NCBI GenBank assembly: GCA_902799045.1
Contig: CADBZH010000019.1
Coordinates: 27,356-91,355 of the forward strand
Source of the DNA: an uncultured Eubacteriales bacterium
Lineage (GTDB): Bacteria; Bacillota; Clostridia; Christensenellales; Aristaeellaceae
Reading direction: 5' to 3'
Length of the DNA: 64,000 bases
Under the pieces are notes generated by a model. The model saw nothing but the letters and a program-made list of their open reading frames with translations, was not told where the DNA came from and searched no databases. Position numbers and translations under genes: made by a program. Of the stretch, positions 279-44,712 are shown one piece after another (the first letter of the stretch is position 1; each line of letters opens with the position of its first letter).

Positions 279-2909
<2,631 letters not shown>

Positions 2910-2929
2910 TCGAACCGAAACTGAACCCA

Positions 2930-2972
2930 CAAAACGGCCCCGTCCGAAAGGACGGGGGCCTGGTTTGTGTGA
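2930..2972 (+). terminator. Intrinsic terminator after ppdK
   Basis: A GC-rich hairpin (GGCCCCGTCC, GAAA loop, GGACGGGGGCC at 2936-2960) is followed by a short T-rich stretch, about 27 bp after the ppdK stop. Confidence 0.75.
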
Positions 2973-3013
2973 GGACTTATCGCAAGAATGCTGACGTTCA
3001 ATCCCCGCCGTAG

Positions 3014-3033
3014 GGACGCCATATATGGCGTCC
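3014..3033. repeat. 20-bp perfect palindrome, dispersed copy 1
   Basis: GGACGCCATATATGGCGTCC is a perfect palindrome. The identical 20-mer recurs at 29771-29790, in both cases in an intergenic region. Confidence 0.7.
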
Positions 3034-3051
3034 GCAGGGCCGGAGGGATCG

Positions 3052-4659
3052 TCAGCCGTCCTGGAAGCAGGAGATGTCCTCGCCTTCCTCCCACTCGGCG
3101 GGGCCGGGTTTGCCGCCGGCGCACACGGGGCAGGGCTTCTTGCCGTCCTCCACGGCCTTGGAGATATCCCAGTGCACGGCGGAGTACATGCCGGAGCAAT
3201 GTTCCTCCAGGTGGTAATAGGTGCCGCCCTTCGTGGCCCAGACGGTGATCTCCGGGTCGCCGGGCTGCCAGCTTCCCGCGGCCTCCCTCGTGGCGAGGGC
3301 CTGGGCCTCCTCCTCGGCGGCGGCGGTGTCCAGGATGGGCGTGAGGTCGGCAATGACAACCTCGTCCGTAAATTCCCGCTTCGCCTCGTCCCAGTGCTTC
3401 GCCACCAGCTGCAGCGATTGGATGTCGCCCAGCGGGACGTAGCCGTCGTAGGTGTAATCCCAGCAGAAGGCGCGGGTGTCGTTCCGCATGGATTCGGTGC
3501 CGCCCCACAGGGCGCTGTACAGCTCCCTGCCGTTCACGTAGAAGAGCAGCTCGGGAAAGCGGCTGAAATCCACGTCCTCGTCGCTTGCCGGCATGCCCTC
3601 GTCCGGCAGCAGCCAGATCCTGGTCTCGATCTTGAAGTGGGTCATGCGGAACTTCTCGATGGTGATGGTCATGCCGTCGTAGCGGAAGGTGTTTTTCTCC
3701 AGGCCGTTGTACAGGTCGTGGGACACCATGTCCTTGTTCAGCGGCAGCGACACGCTCCGCTCGGCCGCCAGGCTGGCGATGCCGGTGTGGTCCAGGCCCT
3801 TCGGGGTGATCGCCCTGTCCGAGAAGGCATAGTCCTTCATGTCAATGGCATAGCCCTTCTCCTCGGCATCCTCCGCCGACAGGACCTCCAGCACATCGGG
3901 GAACATCCACAGGTCCACCATCGGCGCGCCGCACTCGTCCATATCCCAGTAGTACAGCGTGTCCGAGTCCGGGAAGGCGGTTGTCTTGAAGCGGGCGCTC
4001 TTCCAGGGGACCAGCATCTCGGGATGGGCGTAGTCGCCTTCCTCGTTGTAGAAACCCGGCAGGTATTGAAGCGGCCGGTTGGACTTGAAGAAGGCCGCGC
4101 CTACCTCCAGCTTCATGTCCTTCAGCTCCAGCTCCCTGGAATCGGCGATGATCGGCTTTACGAAGGTGTCCGTGGCGGGGTATTTGCCGCCCAGGGCGAT
4201 GGTTGAGCAGGTCCAGCCGTCCTCCAGGTAGCCGCCCACCCGGTATTCCGCGGGCTTGCCGTTGATGCGGGGCACCAGCAGCCCGACCAGGTAGGTGTTT
4301 CCATCCTCCGGCACGGACAGGGTGTAGGAGACGTACAGGTCGTCCCCCTCCCAGACCGCCTCGTCGATGGTGAAATTGAAGCCTTCCCCGGCGTCGGCCA
4401 GGTGCACGTCCTGCACGCGCTCGGCCATGTCCTTTGCGCCCGCGTCGCTCAGCTCGTCCTTCAACTGGTTGTTCCCGATCACCGCCGCCACGGCCCCGAT
4501 GGCCAGCAGCGCGATCAGCGCCGCCACCAGGGCCAGCGTCAGCTTCCTGTAGCGTTTGCTTTGCTTCATATCCCTATCCTCCAGCCCGCGCAGCGTCTGC
4601 TCCACGCGGTCGTGGAACCCCTTCGGGGTCTGGGGGAACGGGTCCTTCCAGCGCTTCAT
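3052..4659 (-). CDS. Membrane anti-sigma factor, DUF4179 type, with C-terminal Cys/His motif
   Basis: This is the probable cognate anti-sigma of the ECF factor directly upstream, whose stop overlaps this start by 4 bp (ATGA). The 535 residues start at ATG 4659 after AGGAGG; the frame extends further upstream, but that part is the sigma gene in another frame. Residues 1-39 would be the cytoplasmic sigma-binding part, residues 40-62 form one hydrophobic segment, and about 470 residues lie outside. The DUF4179 assignment rests on the N-terminal layout and the sigma context. The last 60 residues carry YYHLEEHCSGM and PCPVCAG, a pattern seen in small metal-binding tails of secreted proteins. That tail could sense metal or redox state, which is inference. 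Confidence 0.75.
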   Translation of the reverse strand: MKRWKDPFPQTPKGFHDRVEQTLRGLEDRDMKQSKRYRKLTLALVAALIALLAIGAVAAVIGNNQLKDELSDAGAKDMAERVQDVHLADAGEGFNFTIDEAVWEGDDLYVSYTLSVPEDGNTYLVGLLVPRINGKPAEYRVGGYLEDGWTCSTIALGGKYPATDTFVKPIIADSRELELKDMKLEVGAAFFKSNRPLQYLPGFYNEEGDYAHPEMLVPWKSARFKTTAFPDSDTLYYWDMDECGAPMVDLWMFPDVLEVLSAEDAEEKGYAIDMKDYAFSDRAITPKGLDHTGIASLAAERSVSLPLNKDMVSHDLYNGLEKNTFRYDGMTITIEKFRMTHFKIETRIWLLPDEGMPASDEDVDFSRFPELLFYVNGRELYSALWGGTESMRNDTRAFCWDYTYDGYVPLGDIQSLQLVAKHWDEAKREFTDEVVIADLTPILDTAAAEEEAQALATREAAGSWQPGDPEITVWATKGGTYYHLEEHCSGMYSAVHWDISKAVEDGKKPCPVCAGGKPGPAEWEEGEDISCFQDG

Positions 4660-5126
4660 GGGCGGGCCTCCTTTCCGTTCAATGCGTCCTTGAGCAGCGC
4701 GCGGCCGCGGCTGAGCCGCCACTTCACCGTTCCCTCGGGAACGGCGAGGATGCGGGCGGTCTCGGCGACGCTGTAGCCCTCGATGTAGTGCAGCTCCAGC
4801 GCCGCGCGCAGCTTCTGCGGCAGGCCCATCAGCGCTTCCAATAGCGGCGCGTCCTCCGGCTCCGGCTGGGGAATGTCCTCCGTGAGCTCGGTGGGCGCGG
4901 GCGGGCGGCGGCGGTAGAAGGTCTTGCACTGGTTGATGAGTATGCGCATCAGCCACGTCTCGAAGTACGCCTCGTTTTTCAGCGTGTCCAGCCTGTCCCA
5001 TGCCCGCAGCAGCGCCTCCTGGACCGCGTCCTCGCAATCGCACTCCCGCGGGAGCTGCGTTCGCGCGACGCGGTAGAGCCTGCGTTCACAGGCCCGCACG
5101 CGCTGGATGAAGTCGGCTTGCAGCAT
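4656..5126 (-). CDS. ECF-family RNA polymerase sigma factor
   Basis: The 156-residue protein has sigma region 2 (ECDCEDAVQEALLRAWDRL) at about residues 25-80 and region 4 (VAETARILAVPEGTVKWRLS) at about residues 115-150. There are no other domains, as is usual for ECF factors. ATG 5126 is chosen because GGAGG sits 8 bp upstream and the product then begins MLQADFIQRVRACERRLY; longer in-frame extensions lack a ribosome site. It is translationally coupled to the anti-sigma gene. A promoter-like CGTCTAA element upstream suggests autoregulation. The resemblance is to the SigV/ECF30 group. Confidence 0.92.
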   Translation of the reverse strand: MLQADFIQRVRACERRLYRVARTQLPRECDCEDAVQEALLRAWDRLDTLKNEAYFETWLMRILINQCKTFYRRRPPAPTELTEDIPQPEPEDAPLLEALMGLPQKLRAALELHYIEGYSVAETARILAVPEGTVKWRLSRGRALLKDALNGKEARP

Positions 5127-5157
5127 TGTGGTTCCCTCCAAAGTACCGGTACACCTG

Positions 5158-5186
5158 TTAGACGCGCGGGGACGGGAAACGGTTGG
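5158..5186 (-). promoter_or_regulatory. Putative autoregulatory ECF promoter
   Basis: Read leftward there is CCAACCGTTT (5177-5186) and, about 12 bp further on, CGTCTAA (5158-5164). These resemble the -35 AAC and -10 CGTCTAA elements of SigV/ECF30-type promoters. The element lies about 32 bp ahead of the sigma gene start. Confidence 0.55.
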
Positions 5187-5266
5187 GCGGTCCGACAATT
5201 TTACGCCCCGTCACGTTTCGGCTCCAAATTGTTGGAATAAAGCGCTATTTGAGGCGCGTGGCGGCG

Positions 5267-5296
5267 TTGACAGGGGGCCCTCTGTAATGTTATCAT
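5267..5296 (+). promoter_or_regulatory. Promoter of the 5.4-15.5 kb envelope operon
   Basis: TTGACA at 5267-5272 and TATCAT at 5291-5296 with an 18-bp spacer, 114 bp before the first start codon of the operon. Confidence 0.65.
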
Positions 5297-5410
5297 TAAA
5301 TACTGAAAAATGAGCATCAATTTGGGGGCTCAGGCCGTCCAATATATCAGTTGAACGGAGAAACGCGCCGCGTTTGTCCTGCCTATATATCGGAAAGGAA
5401 GCAATTTGCA

Positions 5411-7657
5411 ATGAAGAAATGGGTTTGCCTGCTGGCGCTTTGCCTGTGCTTGAACGGGACGCTGGCGCTGGCGAGCGAAGTGGAGCCCGCTGCCCCGGCC
5501 GCTGGGGCGGCGCAGACGGAGGCCGTCCAGGAGGCCGCCGAGGCTGGAGAGCCCCCCGCGGCGGGCGGGGAGAACGCCGGTCCCACCGCGGAGGAGATGC
5601 CCGCCGCAGAAGTCGAAAGCGCGGAGCAGGGCGAAGCGCCCGCGAGCCAGAATCCCGCAAGCGAGAATCCCACGAGCGAAAGCCCTGCCAATGAGAATCC
5701 GACCGGCGAGAACCCGGGGAGTGAGAACCCCGCGAGCGAAAGCCCCGCGAGCGAAAGCCCTGCCAGTGAGAACCCCGCGAGCGAAAGCCCCGCGAGCGAA
5801 AGCCCTGCCAGTGAGAACCCCGCGAGCGAAAGCCCCGCGAGCGAGAGCCCTGCCGGTGAGAATCCGACCGGCGAAAACCCCGCGAGCGAAAGCCCCGCCA
5901 GCGGGAACGCGGACGGCGCGGCCACGGAACCCGCCAGCGCCGACGCGCAAGACGCCGGTGACGCGGGCGAAGCGCCCGCCGGGGCGCCCACCGAGGCCCC
6001 CGCGGACGCGGTGCCGGAGGACGCCCAGGCCTGGTTCGAGGCGGACGGCGCGAAGGTGGGCGGCACGCTGGAGGCGCTGCTGCCGCAACTGACCGGCAAG
6101 GTCACGCTGAACCTGATCGACAAGAACATCGAGGGCGTCGCGCGGGTGAAGGACCTGCCGCTGAAGGCGCTGAGCGAAGTGACGCTGAAGCTGGACCCCG
6201 AGGATGACAGCCGGGTGATCCGCGTGTCCCGGAGCGATCCCGCTGGCGTGGAGCGCCCGGAGACCATCGCTCTGAAGGACCTTTCGGACTGCGCTGGGGA
6301 CGAGCGCGGCGATCTCTTCATCTGGATCGAGGACGCCGCACAGCCCACGCCCCAGCCCACGGCCACGCCGGAACCCGTTCCGGTGCTGAGCGTGTCGGCG
6401 GAAAAGCTGTCCGCCGGGGCGTGGAGCAACGAAGCGCCCTCGTTCACCCTCTCCGGCATTCCGGAGGGCAAGGCCTACAGCTATGCCGCCGTGATCTATG
6501 ACGAGCGCATCGTGCCCCTCTCCGGCAACGCCTACGCGCCGGACATGGAGGGCAGGTATTCGGTGCGCTTCGCGATGGTGGACGGCATCGGCGACATCGT
6601 CTCCGCCTCGGAGACGTATCCGCTCTGGCTGGATTTCACCGCGCCGAAGGACGTGATGATCGAATATGACGATGCGTCGGACTACACCCTGCACATCACC
6701 GCCACGGACGGCCTGAGCGGCGTGACGGGCGTGTCGTTCGACGGCGGCGCGACCTGGGAGGCGCTCTCGGACGGCGAGGAATTCACCTATACCGCCGCGG
6801 GGGAGACGACGCTCTCGCCCGGCACGGTGCAGGTCCGGGACGCGGCCGGGAATCTCTGGCGCAGCACAAGCGAGATCCGGCTGGAGGCCGTGACGCCGGA
6901 GCCCGGCGGCGGCGGTGGCGGGGGCGGCGGCAGCGGCGAAAAGAAGCCCGTCCAGTCCCACGCCAGCGGCGACGGCGAGGAGGGCGTGGAGTACGAGGCC
7001 CTGGAGCTGGAGCTGCCCGCGGAGCCGATGAAGAAGCTGACCGTCGGCGGCGAGGAGATGGAGCTGACGCTGGTGCTGGAATCGGCCCGGGCCGAGGGCG
7101 CACCGGTGGGGGAGGAACAGCCCTTCACCGCCGCGCTGGCCCGCTGGCAGGTGCCCGCCGACGCGGACGATCCCCACGAGAACGTGCTGGCGGACGCGGC
7201 GGAGCCCGCGCCGAACACGCTGGTGCTGACCGCGAAAGCGGACGCGAACCTGGGCGACGCCTTCGCCTATACCTGGCGCTTCAACGGCGAGGTGTACCGG
7301 CTGCTCGCCAACAGCGGCATCCGCTACGTGGCCCTGCGGGTGGGCGACGACGTGGCCGCCTTCCCCACAGAGGGCTTCACCGGCGGCACGAAGTACACGG
7401 AGCTGAAGATGCTGGGCGTGTCCACCCGCAAGTTTGACTACACCCTGACGATGCGGGTGAACCTGGACCCGGGCTACGTGTCGGCCATGTCCGACTGCGA
7501 TTTTTCCCGGTCCTGCGATCTGTCCATCCGCGCCGAGGTGGAGAACATGGCCTATGAGCTGAGCGCCTCCACCAACAGCCTGATGTATTTCTACGACGTC
7601 TACCTGGGGCCGGAGGCGATGCTCGACGCGCCCTTTGGGCAGTACAGGGCCGATTGA
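5411..7657 (+). CDS. Secreted protein with PASES-type repeats and Ig-like regions, unknown function
   Basis: The family is not recognised. The 748-residue product starts at ATG 5411 after GGAAAGGAAG; an earlier in-frame start lacks a ribosome site and would bury the signal peptide. Residues 1-21 form a signal peptide ending LALA|SEVEP. Residues about 76-167 are a five-residue repeat block (variants of NPASE/SPASE). After a Pro/Thr linker come beta-rich segments containing an Ig-like stretch (TDGLSGVTGVSFDGGATW) typical of bacterial surface modules. A Gly run near residue 500 separates a C-terminal domain of about 240 residues. No sortase motif, lipobox or C-terminal membrane segment is seen. 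It is the first gene of the operon, so it may be an extracellular partner of the transporter-like proteins that follow. Confidence 0.8.
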   Translation: MKKWVCLLALCLCLNGTLALASEVEPAAPAAGAAQTEAVQEAAEAGEPPAAGGENAGPTAEEMPAAEVESAEQGEAPASQNPASENPTSESPANENPTGENPGSENPASESPASESPASENPASESPASESPASENPASESPASESPAGENPTGENPASESPASGNADGAATEPASADAQDAGDAGEAPAGAPTEAPADAVPEDAQAWFEADGAKVGGTLEALLPQLTGKVTLNLIDKNIEGVARVKDLPLKALSEVTLKLDPEDDSRVIRVSRSDPAGVERPETIALKDLSDCAGDERGDLFIWIEDAAQPTPQPTATPEPVPVLSVSAEKLSAGAWSNEAPSFTLSGIPEGKAYSYAAVIYDERIVPLSGNAYAPDMEGRYSVRFAMVDGIGDIVSASETYPLWLDFTAPKDVMIEYDDASDYTLHITATDGLSGVTGVSFDGGATWEALSDGEEFTYTAAGETTLSPGTVQVRDAAGNLWRSTSEIRLEAVTPEPGGGGGGGGGSGEKKPVQSHASGDGEEGVEYEALELELPAEPMKKLTVGGEEMELTLVLESARAEGAPVGEEQPFTAALARWQVPADADDPHENVLADAAEPAPNTLVLTAKADANLGDAFAYTWRFNGEVYRLLANSGIRYVALRVGDDVAAFPTEGFTGGTKYTELKMLGVSTRKFDYTLTMRVNLDPGYVSAMSDCDFSRSCDLSIRAEVENMAYELSASTNSLMYFYDVYLGPEAMLDAPFGQYRAD
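5638..5910 (+). repeat. Pentapeptide-coding tandem repeat (PASEN/PASES)
   Basis: About 18 degenerate 15-bp units encode (S/N)P(A/T)(S/G/N)E. Higher-order identity between blocks suggests expansion by slippage or unequal exchange. The repeat is in frame within the secreted protein and forms a Pro-rich, acidic, probably extended spacer. Confidence 0.85.
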
Positions 7658-41106: not shown

Positions 41107-41526
41107 TCATTCCGCGCCGGCGCGGCCCTCGATCACGTCTTCGAGGGTGATGCCGTTGAGGTAGTCGAAGATCAGCTTGTCCAGCTCCATCCACATCGGC
41201 AGCGTCTTGCACTTGTGGCAGCGCTCGCAGGAATTGGGCTGCTGCTCCAGGCAGGAGACGGGAGCCATGCTGCCCTCCACCACCTGCAGCACAGAGTGCA
41301 CGGTGTATTCGGAGGGATCCTTTGCCAGCATGTAGCCGCCCTGGTAGCCGCGCACGGCGCGTAGCATGCCCGCCTGGCTGAGATGCAGGGCGATCTGTTC
41401 AAGGTACTTCTTGGAGATATCCTGCCGCAGGGCCACGTCCTTGAGCGTTACGTAGCCGTCCTTCTGGTTTTCGGCGATATCGATCATCATGCGGATCGCA
41501 TAGCGCCCCTTCGTTGAAATTTTCAC
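41107..41526 (-). CDS. Rrf2/IscR-family transcriptional regulator
   Basis: A 139-residue winged-helix regulator with MKISTKGRYAIRMMIDIAEN and LEQIALHLSQAGMLRAVRGY, then QGGY. Four Cys in SCLEQQPNSCERCHKC could bind an Fe-S cluster as in IscR or NsrR. The GTG at 41526 is chosen: GGGAGG is only 2 bp from the ATG two codons earlier but 8 bp from this GTG, and the product then starts exactly like the family. No isc/suf genes adjoin it. A palindrome in its leader (41551-41574) may be its own operator. Confidence 0.92.
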   Translation of the reverse strand: MKISTKGRYAIRMMIDIAENQKDGYVTLKDVALRQDISKKYLEQIALHLSQAGMLRAVRGYQGGYMLAKDPSEYTVHSVLQVVEGSMAPVSCLEQQPNSCERCHKCKTLPMWMELDKLIFDYLNGITLEDVIEGRAGAE

Positions 41527-41787: not shown

Positions 41788-41817
41788 TTGGACAAGCCTA
41801 TAACTTCGTGCTATGAT
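41788..41817 (+). promoter_or_regulatory. Promoter of the permuted metQ-like gene
   Basis: TTGGAC (41788-41793) and TATGAT (41812-41817) with an 18-bp spacer. An inverted CATGA/TCATG pair overlaps the upstream region (41768-41785). Confidence 0.5.
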
Positions 41818-41851
41818 ATTGCCAGTTCAAAGAACAGGAGGCAAACCCACT

Positions 41852-42700
41852 ATGAAGATTCGCAAATTTCTGATCGGCCTGCTGGCCGCGCTGCTCGTGT
41901 TCTCTTCCGCCGCCGCGCTGGCGGACGTCACCATCGGCGTGCCGGACGACACCACCAACGAGGCCCGTGCCCTGAGGCTGCTGGCCGACAACGGCATCAT
42001 TGAGCTGGCCGAGGGCGCCGGCGAGCTGGCCACCAAGGCGGACGTCATCGCCGACGGCATCGAGATCGTCGAGGTGCAGGCGGATCAGCTGGTGAACCAG
42101 CTGGCGGACCTGGACTACGCTGTGATCAACTCCAACTTCGTGCTGGACGCGCTGGACGCCGGCCTGGCGATCAACACCGCGCTGCTGACCGAGGTGGAGG
42201 AGGTCTACCTGCCCAACGCCAACGTCATCGCCGTGCATGGCGACAACGTGGACGCCGACCTGACCCGCGCGCTGGTGGCGGCGGCCCGCAGCCAGCAGGT
42301 GAAGGACTACATCGAGAGCACCTATGCCGGCGCCGTGCTGAGCGTGGTGGACGATCCCACCGACGGCTATGATCCCGACGTGGACTATGACGCCCTGGCC
42401 GGCAGCAAGATCATCATCGCCGCCACGCCCGCGCCCCACGCCCAGATCCTGGAGATCGTGAAGGGCATCCTGGCCGAGAAGAATATCGAGCTGGAGATCA
42501 CCGTGTTCACCGGCTATACCGAGGAAAACCCGGCCGTGGACGCCGGCGATGCCTACGCCAACTACTTCCAGCATCAGCCCTACCTGGACAGCTATGTGCA
42601 GGAGACCGGCGGCAACGTGGTGTCCGTCACCACCGTGCACACCGAGCCGATGGGCCTCTACGGCGGCAAGCAGGCCGACCTGGCGGCGCTGGGGAAGTAA
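41852..42700 (+). CDS. MetQ/NlpA-type binding protein with apparent circular permutation
   Basis: Predicted methionine-type substrate-binding protein of the metN-metI importer downstream. The 282-residue product has a signal peptide (LIGLLAALLVFSSAAALA) and no Cys, so no lipid anchor. Residues 25-165 match the normally C-terminal part of MetQ (TIGVPDDTTNEARALRLLAD, then YIESTYAGAVL). Residues 184-282 match the normally N-terminal part (IIIAATPAPHAQILEIVKGI, ANYFQHQPYLDSYVQE, HTEPMGLYGGK). The halves are thus in swapped order, joined by a linker (DDPTDGYDPDVDYDALAGSK) where the family's natural ends would meet. Substrate-loop residues appear kept. AGGAGG supports ATG 41852. Confidence 0.88.
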   Translation: MKIRKFLIGLLAALLVFSSAAALADVTIGVPDDTTNEARALRLLADNGIIELAEGAGELATKADVIADGIEIVEVQADQLVNQLADLDYAVINSNFVLDALDAGLAINTALLTEVEEVYLPNANVIAVHGDNVDADLTRALVAAARSQQVKDYIESTYAGAVLSVVDDPTDGYDPDVDYDALAGSKIIIAATPAPHAQILEIVKGILAEKNIELEITVFTGYTEENPAVDAGDAYANYFQHQPYLDSYVQETGGNVVSVTTVHTEPMGLYGGKQADLAALGK

Positions 42701-42733: not shown

Positions 42734-42847
42734 TACCACCCCTTTGACAGGCTTTGCTTGAGGCCCGGTGGGCCTCCGGCCGCAAAACCTGCAAGGTTGG
42801 GATTTTTCTTCCGGGAAATGAGATTTCCCTCCTGAAAAATGTCCTAC

Positions 42848-42874
42848 GTCCCTGACGCGCATGTCGTCAGGGAC
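42848..42874. promoter_or_regulatory. 10-bp-stem hairpin upstream of the metN promoter
   Basis: GTCCCTGACG and CGTCAGGGAC around a 7-nt loop. The function is uncertain (terminator or operator). Confidence 0.4.
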
Positions 42875-42883
42875 GATTTATGC

Positions 42884-42973: not shown

Positions 42974-44002
42974 ATGATCGAGCTGAGAAACCTATCCAAG
43001 AGCTTTGTCACCGCCGACGGGCCGGTGGAGGCGCTGAAGCACGTGAACCTGACCGTGAACGACGGCGACATCTACGGCATCATCGGCATGAGCGGCGCGG
43101 GCAAGAGCACGCTGGTGCGCTGCATCAACATGTTGGAGCGGCCCACCGACGGCACCGTCCTGCTGGACGGGCGCGATTTGGGCGCCCTCGACAAGAAGCA
43201 GATGCAGGCGGTGCGCCGCGAGGTGACGATGATCTTCCAGAGCTTCAACCTGCTGATGCAGTCCACGTGCCTTCAAAACATCATGTTTCCGCTGAAGCTG
43301 ACGCGCACGCCCAAGGCCGAGGCCGAGGCGCGGGCGAGGGAGCTGCTGGAAACGGTGGGCCTGCCGGACAAGGCGAACGTCTATCCGGCGCAGCTCTCCG
43401 GCGGCCAGCAGCAGCGCATCGCCATCGCTCGGGCGCTGGCGACGAACCCGCGGGTGCTGCTGTGCGACGAGGCCACCAGCGCCCTGGACCCCCGAACGAC
43501 CCAGTCCATCCTGGAGCTGATCCGCCAGATCAACCGCGATACCGGCATCACCGTGATCGTCATCACCCACCAGATGAGCGTGGTGCAGGAGATCTGCAAC
43601 CGCGTGGCGATCCTCGAAAACGGCGCGGTGGTGGAGGAGGGCGAGGTGAGCCAGGTGTTCTCGCGCCCGAAGGCCGCCGCCACCCGGCAGCTGGTGTTCC
43701 CCGAGATGGCGAACGCCGAGACCCAGGCCGGCTCTGGCTACGGCCAGCTGCTGCGGCTGGTGTTTGAAGGCTCCGTCACCACCAACAAGCCGTTGATCGC
43801 CTCGATGGCCATCGAGTGCGGCATCGCGGCGAACATCCTCGGCGCGTCCACCCGAACGGTGGGCAAGCGGGAATACGGCTACATGCTGATCGAGATCCCC
43901 GGCGGGCCGGACGAGCTGGCCCGGGCGCTGAAGTACATCTCCGGCGCGGAGAACGTGGCCGTGCAGGTGGAAGCCGAATACCGGGCGAAGGAGGGTGCCT
44001 GA
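42974..44002 (+). CDS. metN: Methionine-type ABC importer ATP-binding protein
   Basis: The 342-residue ATPase has Walker A GMSGAGKST, signature LSGGQQQR, Walker B VLLCDEATSALDP and a switch His in VITHQ. Residues about 255-342 form the C-terminal NIL/ACT-like domain that in MetN senses intracellular methionine (transinhibition). ATG 42974 follows GAGGG; the longer frame begins in the promoter. It overlaps metI by 1 bp (TGATG). Confidence 0.95.
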   Translation: MIELRNLSKSFVTADGPVEALKHVNLTVNDGDIYGIIGMSGAGKSTLVRCINMLERPTDGTVLLDGRDLGALDKKQMQAVRREVTMIFQSFNLLMQSTCLQNIMFPLKLTRTPKAEAEARARELLETVGLPDKANVYPAQLSGGQQQRIAIARALATNPRVLLCDEATSALDPRTTQSILELIRQINRDTGITVIVITHQMSVVQEICNRVAILENGAVVEEGEVSQVFSRPKAAATRQLVFPEMANAETQAGSGYGQLLRLVFEGSVTTNKPLIASMAIECGIAANILGASTRTVGKREYGYMLIEIPGGPDELARALKYISGAENVAVQVEAEYRAKEGA

Positions 44003-44712
44003 TGAATCAGTTTGCGTTGGCGTTTGCGCCGGATAAGCTGGAGGAGGCCTGGCACGTATTCCTGACGGAGTTTCCGGCGGGCCTCTGGGAGACGCTGTAT
44101 GTCACGCTGCTCTCCACGCTGTTTGCCATCGTGCTGGGGCTGCCGCTGGGCATACTGCTGGTGACCGGCGACGAAAAGGGCATCCGCCCGCTGCCGAAGC
44201 CGGTGATGAAGGTGCTGAACGTGGTGATCAACTTCCTGCGCTCGGTGCCGTTCCTGATCCTGATGGTCATGGTGATCCCGCTGACCCGCGTGATCGTGGG
44301 CACGTCCATCGGCTCGGTGGCTTCCATCGTGCCGCTGGTGGTGGCGGCGTTCCCGTTCGTGGCGCGGCTGGTGGAGTCGTCCCTGCGGGAGTTGGACCCC
44401 AACATCATCGAAATGGCCCAGAGCATGGGCTCCTCCACGATGCAGATCATCTTCCGGGTGATGCTGCCGGAGAGCGTGCCCTCGCTGGTGACCAACTTCA
44501 CGCTGGCCATCACCACCATCCTGGGCTACACCGCCATGTCCGGCGCGATGGGCGGCGGCGGCCTGGGCAAGATCGCCATCAACTACGGCTATTCCCGCTA
44601 CAAGTACGCCGTGCTCTACCTGGCCGTGATCGTGCTGGTGCTGCTGGTGCAGGTGTTCCAGAGCGTGGGCAGCTTCCTGGCGGCCAAGCTGGACAAGCGG
44701 ATCAAGAAGTAG
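44002..44712 (+). CDS. metI: Methionine-type ABC importer permease
   Basis: The 236-residue permease has five hydrophobic segments, the MetI signature LLSTLFAIVLGLPLGILLV and a coupling loop (RELDPNIIEMAQSMGSSTMQ). It is translationally coupled to metN. Together with the permuted binding protein it makes a complete importer for methionine or a related compound. Confidence 0.95.
   Translation: MNQFALAFAPDKLEEAWHVFLTEFPAGLWETLYVTLLSTLFAIVLGLPLGILLVTGDEKGIRPLPKPVMKVLNVVINFLRSVPFLILMVMVIPLTRVIVGTSIGSVASIVPLVVAAFPFVARLVESSLRELDPNIIEMAQSMGSSTMQIIFRVMLPESVPSLVTNFTLAITTILGYTAMSGAMGGGGLGKIAINYGYSRYKYAVLYLAVIVLVLLVQVFQSVGSFLAAKLDKRIKK

Follow-up and report, generated by a model that had tools for sequence, protein, structure and literature searches.

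A very probable natural circular permutant of a MetQ/NlpA-type binding protein beside a MetNI-type importer in an uncultured Eubacteriales bacterium

Does a binding protein of a MetNI-type importer really carry the two parts of its family domain in reverse order, and if so, how might it have come about? The question is raised by one gene in a stretch of 64,000 nucleotides from contig CADBZH010000019.1 of an uncultured Eubacteriales bacterium, which is called the window here. An initial annotation, made from the sequence of the window, had proposed that the protein is circularly permuted. The analysis reported here suggests that this is very probably a natural circular permutant of a MetQ/NlpA-type (type II) binding protein, serving the MetNI-type importer encoded downstream. 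Handles beginning with L and G denote loci and genomes in the comparison sets, G000 being the bacterium's own genome, and coordinates are those of the window unless prefixed.

Order of the two segments

The PF03180 (MetQ/NlpA) profile matches the protein with 178.3 bits in total, passing the gathering score of 27 bits, in two stretches of a single 298-codon frame. Profile positions 98-234 lie at G000:C19:69282-69698 and precede positions 1-96 at 69765-70052, so the canonical lobe order is absent. When PDB sequences were searched with phmmer, 22 distinct sequences were matched, each in two stretches, and in the five alignments shown residues ~25-163 (segment A) fall on chain positions ~101-249 and residues ~186-278 (in segment B) on chain positions ~4-103, opposite to the order in the chain. 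Aligned with E. coli MetQ, the protein reached a best collinear local score of 154, from segment A alone, compared with 272 when the halves were swapped and 63 for the best of 200 shuffles. These results agree that the lobes stand in the opposite order to the family, as first proposed. A single collinear match to the family, named beforehand as the outcome that would speak against the proposal, was not found in the PDB search, the PF03180 search or the E. coli MetQ alignment.

In type II binding proteins the chain crosses between the lobes twice. Segment A corresponds to the canonical C-terminal part, which is lobe 2 followed by the C-terminal part of lobe 1, and segment B to the canonical N-terminal part of lobe 1. 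The description of the first part as the C-terminal lobe is therefore correct for lobe 2 but omits the section leading back into lobe 1. From the type II topology it can be deduced that the new ends sit at the first crossing between the lobes, and their predicted position at the inter-lobe hinge was borne out, with a conserved break that lies in all permuted groups between helix SLDEL and strand IAVPND of canonical MetQ. The chain would thus begin in lobe 2, cross a single time to lobe 1 and pass through a linker of ~22 residues joining the old C- and N-termini, after which lobe 1 would be completed and the stop reached where canonical MetQ would cross to lobe 2. Such a protein would be expected to adopt the usual two-lobed clamp fold, bind methionine or a close analogue and dock on MetNI, with one covalent connection between the lobes and not two, and with its N-terminus at the hinge on lobe 2 and no longer on lobe 1.

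One alternative is that the gene is an ordinary metQ whose halves were exchanged by an error in assembly or binning, and the source is a draft genome of 54 contigs. However, a scan of GTDB contigs confirmed at least 457 relatives among at least 593 pattern matches, and when the best 80 loci were taken, the window's order was found in 78 of them (the exceptions are L068 and L069). These come from many records, named isolates included. The permuted protein is conserved in many gut bacteria, with strains of Faecalibacterium, Lachnoclostridium, Slackia, Gemmiger and Fournierella among the carriers. Furthermore, the linker sequence is conserved, and the halves are alike in GC content (0.68/0.65) and in GC content at third codon positions (0.96/0.94). 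Among 17 genomes reached via the loci, 15 have the permuted protein as their sole PF03180 protein over the cut-off, and two have the order of L068 and L069. An assembly error, which had also been named beforehand as fatal to the proposal, is excluded by the 78 loci and the 15 genomes and is left with a negligible probability.

Distribution and number of origins

A simple order rule sorted 147 open reading frames (ORFs), all from loci picked by similarity, into 129 permuted and 18 "canonical", with L068 and L069 filed among the latter. In the window's family, 42 of 150 genomes (its own included) have an in-order, near-full-length match with E below 1e-60. Of 147 genomes sampled from the class, 60 match PF03180 at E <= 1e-25. 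The permuted form is carried by 10 of those 60, again including its own, and none of the 10 has a full-length canonical copy among the matches listed; G263 adds a weak partial match. Another Clostridia family has the permuted form in 3 of 100 genomes, with any match in 55. Among the matches listed for 199 genomes across the phylum (to near 1e-13, a few of them cut by contig ends), no swapped pair was seen except the window's own. A PF03180 profile search found no second MetQ in the window's own genome, which is 93% complete. It should be kept in mind that the homologue sets are biased by the similarity searches and that many of the genomes are metagenome-assembled genomes (MAGs). A genome of the same genus (G128, locus L127) lacks a strong permuted match and carries a canonical MetQ and MetN that are divergent and sit on long branches.

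The permuted proteins were divided into P1/2 (the window and the Faecalibacterium type), P3 (the Slackia, Gemmiger and Fournierella type) and P4 (the L111-L126 type). The median linker between the profile segments is 21 residues in P1/2 (129 ORFs, redundant), 16 in P3 (15 ORFs) and 45 in P4 (18 ORFs, with a count that includes the first strand of segment B), and the linker sequences differ among the groups while being conserved within P1/2. Within the set distance, 84 of 106 P1/2 loci and 13 of 16 P4 loci have a metN gene downstream of the permuted gene and on its strand. None of the 15 P3 loci shows this arrangement; there, metN and metI are found upstream, which is also the usual canonical layout.

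The larger tree places P4 within the canonical E. coli-type MetQs (support 97 and 99), and three P4 rows that were checked are 46-50% identical to the canonical protein of L302 (G641). In the MetN tree, which kept 93 of 171 rows and 1 of 13 P3 rows, the MetN of P4 groups with canonical MetN of the E. coli-type kind (96), apart from the P1/2 MetN clade (98); all trees were made by a quick method. Because P4 is nested among canonical MetQs and has its own MetN lineage, a second origin of the permutation is favoured. The competing explanation, in which one event gave rise to all permuted MetQs including P4, is helped by the fact that all groups are broken at the same loop and by the approximately unbiased (AU) test, which leaves a single clade of all permuted forms standing (p 0.38; p 0.20). 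However, the positions of P4 in both trees and the linkers, unlike in length and sequence, make one event a doubtful explanation, though one that retains some weight. Rejection of a single origin for all permuted forms was considered as well, and the AU tests did not give it. Likewise, an origin of P3 separate from P1/2 was unsupported, with the tree holding them together even scoring higher, and P1/2 and P3 may form one clade. Further MetQ matches are present in 14 of the 16 genomes behind the P4 loci, so P4 looks like a second MetNI-type importer.

Route to the permutation and a parallel family

The permutation could have originated when tandem metQ copies fused and their outer parts were then lost, which is close to the duplication with loss of outer halves suggested at the outset. 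The proteins of L068 and L069 have a third order, namely the second half of B, then A, the linker and the first half of B. They keep the P1/2 linker, have a canonical-like hinge (SLDNIDGASIGVPND) and branch within P1/2 or at its base, and metN and metI lie downstream in L068. The L068 model has a predicted local distance difference test (pLDDT) score of 79.1 and a predicted template modelling (pTM) score of 0.66, and is weak at both ends. A fused tandem of the form B-A-linker-B-A, trimmed at two different places, would yield both the P1/2 and the L068/L069 products. In addition, two canonical metQ genes of L298 share a reading frame, with a single TAA and five codons between them, and L300 and L301 encode fused double binding proteins of 577-580 amino acids (aa), in which a lipobox-like start and an SBP_bac_3 part are followed by canonical MetQ. 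The MetQ frames of ~550-600 aa that were examined, those of L300 and L301 with five others left out, included no fused MetQ-MetQ. The long ORFs L128-L130 were rejected as fusions, as their first part looks out-of-frame by eye. Support for a duplication that lost its outer halves is indirect: the sequences offer a linker shared by two products, tandem genes and fusions with another binding protein, but not the fused MetQ-MetQ itself.

The linkers were also compared with 96 canonical sequences. The P3 linker of L065 (EIPQAEGDD) is similar to the start of the mature canonical protein of L127 (EIPAPEGDD), and 4 of the 96 canonical rows, L127 included, have a motif of this sort. The resemblance gives a weak hint that the P3 linker may have kept the start of a second copy. 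In neither the N-terminal segments nor the tails of the 96 could the P1/2 linker motifs be found.

As judged by profile and sequence alignment, a second permuted binding-protein family is present in the same genome. Six SBP_bac_3-type paralogues (Table 1) align in one order, and in four of them PF00497 positions 97-131 precede positions 1-68 (G000:C26 near 31.3, 32.6 and 34.8 kb; C10 near 261 kb). For the paralogue in L239, phmmer against 3i6v placed query residues 155-191 on chain positions 178-214 and residues 213-284 on positions 5-76, a weak match of 17.1 + 6.9 bits, and for the sixth (C26 near 33.4 kb) the swap follows from similarity to L239 alone. Matches to L239 occur in 19 of 60 family genomes, three besides its own falling below 1e-10. 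Two long ORFs of the window's own genome, L242:3288-6620 (+, 1111 aa) and L243:2-2668 (-, 889 aa), have four and three SBP_bac_3 stretches, respectively; by eye, a lobe-2 segment comes first in them, then a permease-like region at the contig ends.

It is an evenly balanced proposition that permutation at the first crossing is a recurrent architecture of type II proteins in gut Clostridia, having arisen at least twice in MetQ and again in the SBP_bac_3 proteins of this genome, by way of trimmed tandem fusions that would leave the lobes joined by one covalent connection and the tether at the N-terminus, on lobe 2.

Ligand, anchoring and known systems

All seven methionine-contact residues are kept in the protein and are invariant in 46 aligned permuted proteins. 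Its AlphaFold2 (AF2) monomer model has a pLDDT of 90.5 and a pTM of 0.81. Several points weigh against a permuted MetQ of this kind. The NCBIfam MetQ cut-offs were missed, with a split alignment (TIGR00363, 83.8 vs 228.85; NF008285, 90.2 vs 374), and the neighbouring proteins also fell under theirs, the MetN-like ATPase with 349.6 bits against 499.7 for TIGR02314 and the MetI-like permease with 197.8 bits against 212 for NF008049. Foldseek and VIA-align rank HisG and a phosphate-binding protein equally high, L068 and L069 are near-identical MAG contigs (98.8% over 1213 bases) that probably represent one species, and the one remaining crossing is deduced from topology alone. The top Foldseek row is HisG and the whole-chain template modelling scores are low, at 0.3-0.5, as would be seen with a swapped order or with a likeness in general fold; since other proteins of the same fold rank as high, the match lacks specificity. 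The 50 entries listed in the fold comparison include no type I sugar-binding protein, a result that leaves room for kinship with that type.

As the MetQ, MetN and MetI models were matched below their cut-offs, methionine is a predicted substrate, and the protein could be a permuted binding protein for another amino acid or a peptide. This is unlikely given the invariant contact residues and the NIL domain on the ATPase. A domain-swapped dimer, with segments A and B pairing between two molecules, would be allowed by the one cut crossing, and PMC10601554 describes separated halves of a type I binding protein that reassemble as a working heterodimer, as well as swapped elements in permuted ribose-binding-protein constructs. 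However, the model of the monomer, the only form run, is confident and the P1/2 linker is short, which makes such a dimer distinctly improbable.

Both importer genes, metN with its NIL domain and metI, adjoin the permuted gene on its downstream side (Table 1). In 16 of the 28 closest loci (L002-L029, some of which stop at contig ends) the Rrf2-family regulator is a neighbour of the permuted gene, and no Rfam match for a riboswitch was found upstream of metQ at the gathering score. The AF2 model has a helix at residues 3-21, in the signal-peptide region. Internal terminators, of which the hairpin between metQ and metN is a possible case, are reported in PMC9045158 to set ABC transporter stoichiometry in Clostridia.

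Table 1. Coordinates of the permuted gene, its neighbours and related genes in other loci
Feature	Position	Strand	Remarks
Divergent Rrf2-family regulator (IscR/CymR-like)	41107..41526	-	PF02082
Promoter-like site TGGACA-17-TATGAT	41789..41817	+	consensus match only
Ribosome-binding site AGGAGG	41836..41841	+	sequence
Coding sequence, MetQ/NlpA-type binding protein, very probably circularly permuted	41852..42700	+	282 aa + stop
Signal peptide, residues 1-24	41852..41923	+	type I-like, ends ALA/DV (by eye), without lipobox
Segment A, residues 25-163	41924..42340	+	PF03180 98-234; R39, N93, N124
Linker, residues 164-185	42341..42406	+	canonical C-terminus to canonical N-terminus
Segment B, residues 186-282	42407..42697	+	PF03180 1-96; Y222, F239, H241, Y244
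Hairpin (11 pairs) and T-containing tail in metQ-metN gap, possible internal terminator	42847..42875	+	consensus match only
MetN-like ATPase with NIL domain	42974..44002	+	PF00005, PF09383
MetI-like permease	44002..44712	+	PF00528; start codon overlaps metN stop codon
Third-order MetQ	L068:339-1190, L069:4908-5759		shares linker of window's group
Fused SBP_bac_3 and canonical MetQ	L300:1370-3100, L301:1449-3188	-	
SBP_bac_3-type paralogues	L238:1237-2511, 2567-3700, 3863-4888, ~5035-5772	+	
SBP_bac_3-type paralogue	L239:3785-4852	-	
SBP_bac_3-type paralogue	L240:4202-5098	-	

The initial annotation had also noted that the protein has no Cys, which is seen in the sequence and means that it lacks the Cys of an N-terminal lipobox, and had tied the permutation to a change in anchoring. 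The second idea did not hold. In the window's family a lipobox was found in 3 of 16 canonical and 4 of 49 permuted proteins (by a loose pattern with some false positives), leaving 13 of the 16 canonical MetQs without one, and in other loci in 66 of 80 canonical and 80 of 113 permuted proteins; the loci are redundant and the "other" ones include unnamed MAGs of the window's own kind. A lipobox is present in permuted relatives such as that of F. prausnitzii and in 15 of 15 P3 proteins. The idea that permutation caused the loss of the lipid anchor was rejected, as Lgt and Lsp are present and lipobox loss follows lineage. The missing lipobox is best read as a lineage trait, and anchoring and permutation look like separate matters. 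In N. meningitidis, MetQ must be lipidated for interaction, as reported in PMC8416018.

Related gut bacteria have one form or the other next to an importer of the same kind, which amounts to a natural experiment on what the two-strand hinge and the site of the membrane tether contribute to ABC import, and the L068/L069 order together with tandem in-frame metQ genes makes the tandem-fusion route to permutation testable. Profile annotation overlooks the swap: Lipoprotein_9 is still the Pfam call, and the scores for the NCBIfam MetQ models stay under the cut-offs.

The protein is like E. coli and N. meningitidis MetQ (PF03180) in having both lobes, the seven ligand residues and metN and metI as neighbours, and differs from canonical MetQ in its swapped segments, its new linker, its ends at the hinge and, here, the missing lipobox. 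Permuted binding proteins are already known, whereas permutation within MetQ appears to be new as far as the searched literature goes: none was found in titles and abstract openings of open-access papers, a scope outside which most subscription papers and bioRxiv lie. According to PMC4990184, TpMglB-2 (Tp0684) of Treponema pallidum, termed "Type Ic", is a naturally permuted binding protein of an ABC importer whose topology also occurs in Gram-positive gut bacteria. The protein described here is likewise a probable natural permutant serving an ABC importer, but TpMglB-2, on the same source, has a type I sugar-binding fold and belongs to another family with another ligand, whereas the sequence here matches PF03180. 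The glycine-betaine-binding proteins OpuAC and ProX are related to each other by circular permutation with an identity under 24%, according to PMC2395249. OpuAC resembles the permuted MetQ model to the extent that the two align in chain order. Unlike OpuAC and ProX, however, permuted and canonical MetQ are clear homologues within one family, with a shared domain that is 48-63% identical in the rows compared.
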